Below, one piece after another: positions 15,663 to 25,093 of a stretch of DNA of 64,000 nt (position 1 is its first letter; each line of letters starts with the position of its first letter). A program made the position numbers and the translations under genes. The notes beneath the pieces were generated by a model. It saw nothing but the letters and a program-made list of their open reading frames with translations, searched no databases and was not told the origin of the DNA. The DNA comes from Alphaproteobacteria bacterium (GTDB lineage: Bacteria; Pseudomonadota; Alphaproteobacteria; Reyranellales; Reyranellaceae), in contig JAHBYP010000005.1 in NCBI GenBank assembly GCA_019635875.1, forward strand, positions 372,001-436,000. The letters are read 5' to 3'.

Positions 15663-16658
15663 TCAAGAATCCGCCGTGAACCCGATCTTCTTCACGATCG
15701 GCCCCCACCGGTCGTAGCTCGTCTTCAGCAGCGTCGCCAGCTCCTGCGCCGACGACGAGGTCGCCACCAGCCCCATGGTCGCCACGCCGTCGATCACCTC
15801 CTTGGTCGCCAGCGCCTTGACCAGCGCGGCGTTGGCGCGCGCGATCGCCGGGGCGGGCGTGCCGCCGGGGGCGAAGAAGCCGAACCATTCGCTGAAGATG
15901 AGGTCCTTGAAGCCCTGCTCGACCAGGGTCGGCACGCCGGGCGCGAAGCGGTTGCGTGTGGCGCCCGTCGTGGCCAGCAGGCGCAGCTTGCCGGCGGCGA
16001 CGTGCTGGGTGAACTCGCCGACCGGCGCGGACACCGCCTGGATCTGGCCGGCGAGCAGGTCCTGCACCGCCGGCGCCGAGCCGCGATAGGGCGCGTGCTT
16101 GAGCTCGACGCCGCCGGCCTGGCCCAGCAGCACGCCGATGAAGTGCGGCACCGCGCCGGCGCCGGGCGAGCCGTAGTTGGCCTTGTCAGGGTTCGCCTTG
16201 GCCCAGGCGAGGAAGTCCGGCACGGTCTTGACGCTGTCGGGCACCGCCGGGCCGACGCACCAGCCGAAATCGAAGGTGCAGCCCAGCGACACCGCGGTGA
16301 CGTCGGCGAAGGCGTCGTAGGCGAGCTTCTTGTAGATGTGCGGATAGATCATCAGCATCGAGGCCGGCGTCAGCAGCAGCACCGAGCCGTCGGTCGCCGC
16401 ACCCTTCATCGACTGCACGGCGATCTGGCCGCCGGCACCGGGCTTGTTCTCGACCAGGATCGATTTGGCGTAGCCGCCGACGCGCAGCGCCTCGGCGGTG
16501 CGGCGCGAGAGCGTGTCCGACGTGCCGCCCGGCGGGAAGCCCAGCACGATGCGCGCGTTGTCGAGCGGCGCCTGGGCATGGGCGGCGGTGGTCGTTGCCG
16601 CCAGCGCCAGCGCGGCGGCCGAAGCGCCGACGAAGGCGCGGCGGTTGATGGTCGTCAT
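15663..16658 (-). CDS. Bug-family (TctC-like) tripartite tricarboxylate transporter substrate-binding protein
   Basis: The product is a 331-aa periplasmic binding protein. The start is the ATG at 16658 (MTTINRRAFVGASAAALALA), preceded by GGGGAG; longer frames extend into the divergent gene's region. NRRAF plus the hydrophobic stretch suggests a signal peptide, possibly Tat, cut after AHA-Q. Family marks include IVLGFPPGGTSDTLSR (ligand carboxylate loop), NKPGAGGQIAVQSMKGAATDGSVLLL, and GAVPHFIGVLLGQAGGVELKHAPYRGSAPAVQDLLAGQI. Bug proteins bind small carboxylates or amides. No TctA/TctB membrane partners are adjacent, as is common for orphan Bug genes. Only 3 bp separate its stop from the next gene start. 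Confidence 0.93.
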   Translation of the reverse strand: MTTINRRAFVGASAAALALAATTTAAHAQAPLDNARIVLGFPPGGTSDTLSRRTAEALRVGGYAKSILVENKPGAGGQIAVQSMKGAATDGSVLLLTPASMLMIYPHIYKKLAYDAFADVTAVSLGCTFDFGWCVGPAVPDSVKTVPDFLAWAKANPDKANYGSPGAGAVPHFIGVLLGQAGGVELKHAPYRGSAPAVQDLLAGQIQAVSAPVGEFTQHVAAGKLRLLATTGATRNRFAPGVPTLVEQGFKDLIFSEWFGFFAPGGTPAPAIARANAALVKALATKEVIDGVATMGLVATSSSAQELATLLKTSYDRWGPIVKKIGFTADS

Positions 16659-22955: not shown

Positions 22956-23026
22956 GGGCCCCTCCCTCCCTGTCACGAACGGCCGGCGATCTCACGCACG
23001 TGGCAACGACGTGGCCCAAATGCAAG

Positions 23027-23052
23027 AAGGGCCGCCCTCGCGGGCGGCCCTT
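23027..23052 (-). terminator. Strong 11-bp hairpin closing the small mRNA (or attenuating dodecin)
   Basis: AAGGGCCGCCC (23027-23037) and GGGCGGCCCTT (23042-23052) pair perfectly around a 4-base loop. In the minus direction the hairpin follows the small ORF stop by about 40 nt and is trailed by CTTGCATTTGG, a weak U-tract. It can end the small transcript or act as an attenuator before dodecin. Confidence 0.65.
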
Positions 23053-23093
23053 CCATTGCCACGGCCTCGATTTCCGGGGCCAAGACGGCTCGA

Positions 23094-23171
23094 TCAGTCG
23101 GTGTTCCCCGAAGTGGAGACAGCAACGATCCAGGCCTTGGCCTTACGGGGCCGAACGTGACAATGAGACAC
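23094..23171 (-). CDS. rreB/rreR-type small ORF (25 codons) with extended Shine-Dalgarno
   Basis: The frame starts with GTG at 23171 and stops with TGA at 23096-23094. The peptide begins VSHCHVRPRKAKAWIVAV and ends SGNTD, basic in its first half. The GTG sits seven bases after AGGAGG within a 17-nt block perfectly complementary to the 16S rRNA 3' end. A promoter at 23210-23238 and a hairpin at 23027-23052 bracket it, giving a predicted mRNA of about 180 nt. A 165-nt Bradyrhizobiaceae mRNA (rreB) with a 17-nt Shine-Dalgarno, a GTG start and a very short peptide, and a Rhodobacter-lineage counterpart (rreR), have been described; all those traits recur here. Family membership is inferred from architecture, not from peptide alignment. 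The peptide may matter less than ribosome capture by the leader. Confidence 0.72.
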   Translation of the reverse strand: MSHCHVRPRKAKAWIVAVSTSGNTD

Positions 23172-23187
23172 TGGATCACCTCCTTTC
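23171..23187 (-). promoter_or_regulatory. Extended Shine-Dalgarno: 17 nt complementary to 16S rRNA 3' end
   Basis: Minus strand GAAAGGAGGTGATCCAG; its plus-strand complement CTGGATCACCTCCTTTC is the standard alphaproteobacterial 16S 3' terminus. The last G is also the first base of the GTG start codon. Ordinary sites pair over 4-8 nt. Confidence 0.85.
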
Positions 23188-23209
23188 GGTTGTTGGAACA
23201 AGGACAGGC

Positions 23210-23238
23210 ATTATGACGGATCGCGCGGCGCACGACAA
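23210..23238 (-). promoter_or_regulatory. Promoter of the small mRNA, overlapping the start of the divergent synthetase gene
   Basis: Reading the minus strand, TTGTCG (23238-23233), a 17-base spacer, and CATAAT (23215-23210) make a good sigma-70-type promoter. The predicted start is near 23203, giving a leader of about 30 nt before the GTG. The -10 box covers the ATG of the divergent acyl-CoA synthetase at 23213. Confidence 0.6.
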
Positions 23239-25093
23239 CAGGGTCCGCAACCTGGCCGACATCGAGGCGCTCGAGCGCGTGCCGGTGGGCGAGCGCATCC
23301 GGGCGCAGAACGTGCTGGAGCTGCTGCAGGGGGCGGCGCAGAAGAACGGCCGCTCCGTCGCCCTGCGCTACCTCGCCGGCACCGGGCCGGACGCCGAGAT
23401 CGAGGACGTCAACTTCCTGCAGCTGCTGCGGCGCACGATCCAGGCCGCCAACCTGCTGCGCAGCCACGGCATCGCCCACGACGACGTCGTGACGCTGCTG
23501 ATGCCCAGCGTGCCGCAGACCTTCTACGCCCTGTGGGGCGCGCAGATCATCGCGGTCGCCAATCCGGTGAACTACTTCCTCGAGGCACAGCAGATCGCCG
23601 GCATCATGAAGGAGGCTGGCGCCAAGGCGCTGATCGCCGCCGACCCGTCGATCTTCCCGGACATCTGGCCCAAGGTCGAGGCGATCCGCGCCGCCATGCC
23701 GGAGCTGAAGGTCTTTCGCGTCGGCGGCGGCGGCAACCTGCCCGGCGTTATCGACTTCGACGCCGGACGCGCGGCGCAGGCCGGCGACTGGCTGCTGTCG
23801 AAGAAGCCACTGCGCGCCGACACGCTGGCCGCGCTGTTCCACACCGGCGGCACCACCGGCCTGCCCAAGCTGGCGCGCCACACGCATGGCGCGCTGGCGC
23901 TGATGGCGTGGACCAACACGCTGCTGTTCGACATGGCGCCGGGCACGGTGCTGCTCAACCCGCTGCCGCAATTCCATGTCGGCGGCTCGCTGTTCGGCGC
24001 GCTGGCGCCGGTGGCCAATGGCTGGACGGTGGTGATCCCCACGCCGCTGGGCGCGCGCAACCCCAACGTGGTGCGCGACTACTGGGGCATCGTCGAGCGC
24101 CACAAGGTCACCATCGGCGGCGCCGTGCCGACCTCGCTGGCGGCGATCATGAACGTGCCGCGCGAGGGCCACGACATCTCCTCGCTCAAGGCCTTCGTCA
24201 CCGGTGGCTCCACCGTGCCGGTCGAGCTGATCCGCCGCATCGAGCGCGAGATCGGCGCGCCGGTGATCGAGGGCTACGGCATGACCGAGGTGCACTGCTA
24301 CTCGACCATGAACCCGCTGCACGGCGAGCGCCGCTCGGGATCGGTCGGATTGCGCCTGCCCTACCTGCAGCTGCGCATCGCCGACGTCGCGCCCGACGGC
24401 ACGATCCGGCGCGACTGCGCCACCGGCGAGATCGGCCATGTGCTGATGAAGGGGCCGCAGGTGACGCCGGGCTATCTCGACACCCGCCACGACAGGGGCG
24501 CGATGCTGGCCGATCGCTGGCTCGATTCCGGCGATCTCGGCCGGCTCGACGCCGACGGCTATGTCTGGCTCACCGGCCGCTCGAAGGATCTGATCATCCG
24601 CGGCGGCCACAACATCGATCCGGTGGTGATCGAGGAGGCGCTCAACCGTCATCCCGCGGTCGAGACCGCCGCCGCGGTGGGCCTGCCCGACACCTATGCC
24701 GGCGAGCTGCCGATGGTCTACGTGCAGCTCAGGCCCGGCGCGACGGCGACGGCCGAGGAGCTGCGCGAATTCTGCCGCAGCGAGATCCCCGAACGTGCCG
24801 CGGTGCCGGTGCAGGTCGTGACGATCCCGGTCATGCCGGTGACCGGCGTCGGCAAGATCTACAAGCCGGCGCTCAGGCTCGACGCGGCGCAACGCGCCTT
24901 CGACGCCGCGCTGGCGCCGCTGCGCGCCGAGGGCGTGGGCGCCGAGGTCACGGTCGGCAATGACGCAACGCACGGCACGCTGGCAACGGTGCGCGTGGCA
25001 GCCGCCGGCGAGGCGTCGAAGGACGCGATCGTCAAACGCTGCGCGGATCTGCTGGGCGGCTTCCAGATCCGCCACGCCGTGACGTTCCTCTGA
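23213..25093 (+). CDS. AMP-forming acyl-CoA synthetase
   Basis: The gene encodes 626 aa from the ATG at 23213 (MTDRAAHDNRVRNLADIEALERV), with AAGGA eight bases upstream; the longer open frame upstream is antisense to the small ORF. ANL-superfamily motifs are LFHTGGTTGLPKLARHTH (P-loop, near residue 208), EGYGMTEVHCYS (A5), SRWLDSGDLGRLDADGYVWLTGRSKDLIIRGGHNIDP (A7/A8) and VTGVGKIYKPAL with the catalytic Lys. After it there is an extra C-terminal region of about 75 residues (VGAEVTVGNDATHGTLATVRVAAAGEASKDAIVKRCADLLGGF), unusual for the superfamily. The P-loop has HTGGTTGLPKL instead of the common TSGTTGxPKG. The acid substrate is unknown. Confidence 0.9.
   Translation: MTDRAAHDNRVRNLADIEALERVPVGERIRAQNVLELLQGAAQKNGRSVALRYLAGTGPDAEIEDVNFLQLLRRTIQAANLLRSHGIAHDDVVTLLMPSVPQTFYALWGAQIIAVANPVNYFLEAQQIAGIMKEAGAKALIAADPSIFPDIWPKVEAIRAAMPELKVFRVGGGGNLPGVIDFDAGRAAQAGDWLLSKKPLRADTLAALFHTGGTTGLPKLARHTHGALALMAWTNTLLFDMAPGTVLLNPLPQFHVGGSLFGALAPVANGWTVVIPTPLGARNPNVVRDYWGIVERHKVTIGGAVPTSLAAIMNVPREGHDISSLKAFVTGGSTVPVELIRRIEREIGAPVIEGYGMTEVHCYSTMNPLHGERRSGSVGLRLPYLQLRIADVAPDGTIRRDCATGEIGHVLMKGPQVTPGYLDTRHDRGAMLADRWLDSGDLGRLDADGYVWLTGRSKDLIIRGGHNIDPVVIEEALNRHPAVETAAAVGLPDTYAGELPMVYVQLRPGATATAEELREFCRSEIPERAAVPVQVVTIPVMPVTGVGKIYKPALRLDAAQRAFDAALAPLRAEGVGAEVTVGNDATHGTLATVRVAAAGEASKDAIVKRCADLLGGFQIRHAVTFL

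Follow-up and report, generated by a model that had tools for sequence, protein, structure and literature searches.

A CC2171/rreB-type small RNA gene of a Reyranellaceae bacterium, with an extended Shine-Dalgarno site and a covarying partner inside its own short frame

The locus and its Rfam family

The DNA analysed here, the window, is a 64,000-nucleotide stretch of contig JAHBYP010000005.1 from an alphaproteobacterium of the Reyranellaceae (assembly GCA_019635875.1). Its minus strand carries a small RNA gene for which the original prediction had described a 17-nt anti-16S site, a GTG at the last base of this site, a 25-codon ORF, a promoter and an 11-bp hairpin; all of these were confirmed base for base, at the correct coordinates. 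The extended Shine-Dalgarno site GAAAGGAGGTGATCCAG (23171..23187, minus strand, as for all elements of the RNA given below) is complementary, along its 17 nt, to the 3' end of alphaproteobacterial 16S rRNA. The ORF (23094..23171) runs for 25 codons from the GTG at 23171-23169 to the TGA at 23094 and would encode the peptide VSHCHVRPRKAKAWIVAVSTSGNTD. Upstream of the site its most conserved bases form the 5' leader CAACAACC (23188..23195). A -35 element TTGTCG (23233..23238) and a -10 element CATAAT (23210..23215), separated by 17 nt, constitute the only sigma-70-like match in 351 bases (0.0 expected), and six other members of the bacterial family, two of them congeneric, retain a CTTG...CATAnT layout with the spacing unchanged. 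About 40 nt past the ORF stop lies the terminator hairpin AAGGGCCGCCC-GCGA-GGGCGGCCCTT (23027..23052) of 11 bp, and the promoter and terminator together predict a transcript of about 170-175 nt.

A cmscan search recovered RF01867 (CC2171) as the sole above-threshold match in the window (23028-23195, minus strand; 83.9 bits against a curated gathering score of 75; E 9.7e-16). The match begins at the 5' leader and covers the whole model, positions 1-159 of 159. We are thus nearly certain that the locus is a genuine small RNA gene, present in one copy, and that it belongs to CC2171, a family known from Alphaproteobacteria that also takes in the rreB genes published from Bradyrhizobiaceae (Hahn et al., 2017, RNA Biol 14:1353, as cited in PMC7298713). 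It is an additional member of an already catalogued family, and the idea that it represents an unrecorded kind of gene falls away. The family structure of this Caulobacter sRNA already includes the helix termed P1 below. However, RF01867 is filed as an sRNA without an ORF, which the window RNA has, and the structure line of its model contains no pairing between the extended site and an ORF segment. With Rfam 15 the family gained one covarying pair (PMC11701678).

The extended site

At 17 nt directly before the start codon, the site exceeds the complementarity of at least 16 nt to the 16S 3' end by which rre genes are recognised (alphaproteobacterial tail CTGGATCACCTCCTTTC), and the GTG start and the very short ORF of 25 codons likewise agree with that class. 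The computed pairing energy with the 16S tail is -32.2 kcal/mol, as against -11.6 kcal/mol for an 8-nt site. A search of the genome's own assembly found no rRNA, and the tail (...CTGGATCACCTCCTTTCT) was taken from alphaproteobacterial plasmid and chromid records; 209 plasmid and chromid records contain it at at least 99% identity over 52 bases, and the 30 listed among them are alphaproteobacterial. Chance can be ruled out as the origin of the site, because a 17-mer has an estimated expectation of about 0.0007 in 12.4 Mb of strand, a 15-mer of the site occurs once in the genome, and the genome's other GGAGGTGATCCNNTG / GGAGGTGATCC site falls inside a coding frame, which resembles a GMC oxidoreductase by eye. 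Another exact copy of AAGGAGGTGATC in the window, at 15792-15803, was also rejected, being within an ordinary coding frame.

Distribution and relation to rreB and rreR

Homologues of RF01867 were detected in 94 of 387 alphaproteobacterial genomes (E <= 0.001). In one draw, the pattern of extended site plus start was present in approximately 66 of 113 alphaproteobacterial genomes versus 5 of 186 genomes of other Pseudomonadota; three of these five matches were set aside as the starts of ordinary longer coding frames (71 or more codons). The site-bearing loci found by the covariance model have ATG, GTG or TTG at the same place. Within this common layout the ORFs fall into several kinds: named Bradyrhizobium loci have 14-codon GTG ORFs such as VSYLKRCHLAGIAR; Methylobacterium, Bosea, Roseiarcus, Microvirga and others have VSHC-type ORFs resembling that of the window; and the Sphingomonadales loci have 18-codon ATG ORFs. 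The exact site is found in 36 of the 41 genomes of the genus of one Bradyrhizobium-type genome (G305). The classification as rre-type holds: site, fixed-spacing start, short ORF and terminator recur together across the Alphaproteobacteria, and Bradyrhizobium-type loci with the features of rreB match RF01867.

The rreB mRNA reportedly has a 17-nt site, a GTG start, a tiny ORF and a length of about 165 nt, of which the first three are common to it and the window locus. Two loci with a 14-codon GTG ORF (L238 and L243) match RF01867 significantly, with E-values of 9.8e-8 and 2e-9, though they fall short of the curated cut-off; we take these to be rreB from the like ORFs of the named Bradyrhizobium loci L142, L152 and L191 together with its reported features. 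They differ from the window locus in having 14 rather than 25 codons and a different in-ORF partner of the site. The rreR genes of the Rhodobacter/Roseobacter lineage, with the same layout, are said to contain an 18-codon ORF. Candidate 18-codon GTG loci, which we presume to be rreR from ORF length alone, also match below the curated cut-off (L256, E 4.6e-4; L258, E 2.8e-5); here the partners of the site are found within a hairpin early in the ORF and close to the terminator (CCACCTCC), whereas that of the window RNA is mid-ORF. CC2171, rreB and rreR, the last via its reported 18-codon feature, are best read as one family. A literature search that did not extend to the main rreB paper found no statement of this connection, of a neutral peptide or of an in-ORF partner of the site; in part these may already be published.

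Several further variants of the arrangement were observed. The other two of the five non-alphaproteobacterial pattern matches, in gammaproteobacterial-type genomes (G435 and G611), are rre-like loci (L253, L254) with TAAGGAGGTGATCATATGTCG and 18-codon ORFs bearing AMSEGR near their end, followed by CGGAAAGCCGC and a terminator; only 2 of the 80 genomes in their family have such loci, which gave no Rfam match. Three other loci (L099 and, from Azospirillum, L158 and L185) have the extended site before a 57-59-codon ORF with a signal-peptide-like start (MSHGA...). Rhodobacter-type loci such as L258 and L259 show a palindrome, CCACAAAATCTGTGG, upstream of the site near the promoter, with variants in several related loci; it is possibly an operator.

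Two interleaved helices

The first helix, P1, pairs codons 2-6 with the segment preceding the terminator. In the minimum-energy fold of the window RNA, which it closes (fold z-score -4.6), its 5' strand is TCTCATTGTC (23159..23168, codons 2 to 5) and its 3' strand GGCAATGGA, directly before the terminator (23052..23060). The two strands correspond to the consensus helix of RF01867 between a post-start and a pre-terminator segment. P1 covaries from UA to CG at two pairs in the alignment of the VSHC group (A1), and in other lineages it is formed by different yet matching sequences, such as CAUGGUUCAGC:GCUGACCAUG. P1 is strong in the window RNA but weak in Bradyrhizobium and its rreB.

The second helix, P2, forms between the extended site and a segment of the ORF (CTGGATC ... 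CTCC; 23115..23133) that resembles the 16S tail. Unconstrained RNAalifold on a 58-sequence alignment returns this pairing. Across its 11 pairs, 92.3% of cells can pair, with slid versions reaching 33-58%; 0 of 500 shuffles came as high, these leaving the relatedness among loci in place. When the site variants were permuted among loci, the observed P2 energy was reached in 0 of 500 permutations (z -6.2). The pair at columns 16/68 reads AU in 44, GC in 5, UA in 2 and CG in 2 sequences, and full double changes in P2 are confined to one pair and a few lineages. Many pairs vary on the partner side alone (GC/GU), as is expected since the 16S rRNA fixes the side of the site. Where the site itself leaves 16S complementarity, as GATCCTG, GATCCCG, GATCTCG or GATCCGG, the ORF segments match it as CAGGATC, CGGGATC, CGGGATC and CCGGATC, respectively; accordingly, the segment tracks the site rather than the 16S rRNA. 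Within the window's own bacterial family, GATCCAG:CTGGATC of the window is replaced by the compensated GATCCTG:CAGGATC in L050-L052. These belong, with L042, to another genus, whose loci have GATCCTG as the site and a different ORF, the matching segment being CAGGATC, or CGGGATC in L042; most genomes of this genus escape detection by Rfam. In Bradyrhizobium, GAGGTGA of the site pairs with TCACCTC in an invariant stretch of the ORF. The Sphingomonadales give no clear P2.

P1 and P2 interleave along the RNA, in the order site, codons 2-6, ORF partner and pre-terminator strand, and must therefore form a pseudoknot or else represent alternative states. In nested folds of the full-length transcript, P1 exceeds a probability of 0.5 in 48 of the 58 members and P2 does so in 1, and RNAfold does not support P2 as a stable nested fold. 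As forming P2 without P1 costs about 8 kcal/mol in the window RNA, P2 may be transient or pseudoknot-dependent.

A trans-acting sRNA would account for some of this differently: the exposed site or its 16S-tail-like partner would pair with other mRNAs, and the ORF would be a by-product. Such a function would fit the cataloguing of the family by Rfam as an sRNA in Caulobacter. It would also fit a published list of predicted intergenic sRNAs (PMC5596092), which includes the homologue MH_s33 (RF01867) of Mesorhizobium huakuii and gives it two sets of mapped coordinates, and an anti-SD-like segment could bind many leaders. However, the start codon, the open frame and the 16S complementarity demand a ribosomal explanation, and the partner segment changes together with the site of the same RNA; we regard a trans-acting role as unlikely.

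An open frame with a neutral peptide

The frame is kept open in relatives: of 217 loci, 209 have 10-35 open codons in frame 0, versus 94 and 79 for the other two frames, a control partly affected by conserved motifs and the relatedness of the loci. The peptide behaves otherwise. Over 64 non-overlapping closest relative pairs the ORF has a pN/pS of 0.94 (bootstrap 0.80-1.11), as opposed to 0.24 for flanking ORFs (44 of the same 64 pairs); hence, purifying selection on amino acids, as anticipated for a functional small protein, is not seen, and there is no detectable selection on the peptide sequence despite the open frame. The peptide also has no match in Pfam. What evolution retains appears to be the RNA rather than the peptide.

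These values speak against the reading of the locus as a small-protein gene, in which the 25-residue peptide would be the functional product and the strong site would serve high output. The conserved start codon, spacing and open frame could be taken in this sense, as could the recurring S-H-C-H and T-W-I-x-A-S motifs. However, the peptides are wholly different between lineages sharing the RNA layout, and the variation in the Bradyrhizobium ORFs consists mainly of amino-acid changes at codons 3-4, the remainder being nearly invariant, synonymous sites included. The W-I motif, moreover, coincides with the P2 partner, and in L145 the partner segment has slipped into another frame with the overall ORF length retained. 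We accordingly find a small-protein gene quite improbable, and the suggestion that the peptide might define a further version of these genes does not survive.

Neighbouring genes

The promoter of the RNA (23210-23238) shares sequence with the opening codons of an acyl-CoA ligase-like gene that runs divergently (23213-25093; Pfam AMP-binding), such that the CAT of the -10 element is the complement of that gene's ATG; this gene also adjoins the RNA in two congeneric genomes. On the other side, a dodecin gene starts about 70 nt past the terminator on the same strand as the RNA, but a role of the RNA as its leader or attenuator is scarcely credible, as the terminator separates the two and no dodecin lies in the fetched flanks of any other locus, including the two congeneric ones. 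The association with dodecin that had been anticipated in relatives was thus seen in the window's own genome only, and the adjacency is incidental.

A proposed 30S-binding, self-masking RNA

We propose that the window RNA is probably an element that binds 30S subunits and masks its own site, with no more than token translation. To the site, P1, P2 with its covariation, the open frame, the neutral peptide, the promoter, the terminator and the family membership, all of which are read from sequence, this proposal would add the capture of 30S subunits in this organism, a switch and possibly a regulatory output. In it, a free-standing RNA of about 170 nt belonging to the CC2171/rre family would bind 30S subunits tightly by forming 17 bp between its extended site and the 16S tail. 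A 30S subunit so bound should initiate poorly, because the pairing would extend to the initial G of the GTG and P1 would lock up codons 2-6, an added barrier just behind the start codon. With the start codon in the P site, a duplex of this kind could not remain intact. This incompatibility fits what is reported of rreB, the mRNA of which is said to be retained on the 30S subunit and weakly translated; for rreB the binding is thus reported, for the window RNA it is predicted. Alternatively, the site might pair with the 16S-tail-like stretch of the ORF and be hidden from ribosomes by P2, with P1 and P2 forming a pseudoknot or alternative states, of which nested folding favours P1. The ORF would stay open and probably be translated at a low level, its peptide being without detectable function. 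The selected property might then be the balance between 30S binding and self-masking, with a possible role as a ribosome-gated regulator or a sensor of free 30S subunits.

The closest analogues elsewhere are the pseudoknots of E. coli rpsO/S15 and the alpha operon, which trap the 30S subunit on the mRNA. The likeness would lie in a possible start-codon pseudoknot with a bound, non-initiating 30S subunit; however, the window RNA involves no repressor protein or downstream gene, and its masking strand resembles the 16S tail. More tentatively, we raise the possibility that these loci represent one ancient alphaproteobacterial RNA device, which combines a maximal site for 16S binding with an imitation, in its own frame, of the 16S tail. 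Free 30S subunits and the imitation would compete for the site, the peptide would be a trace of the pairing, and the RNA would report or buffer free 30S subunits, with CC2171, rreB and rreR as local versions.

In terms of the family, an uncharacterised sRNA of Rfam thereby becomes linked to the rreB small mRNAs, and the analysis of its loci tells selection for an open frame apart from selection for a peptide. The opposition of the site and its in-ORF partner offers a directly testable pairing model for the retention of an RNA on the small ribosomal subunit. It also carries a warning: a conserved short peptide beside a strong site can be the shadow of an RNA structure.
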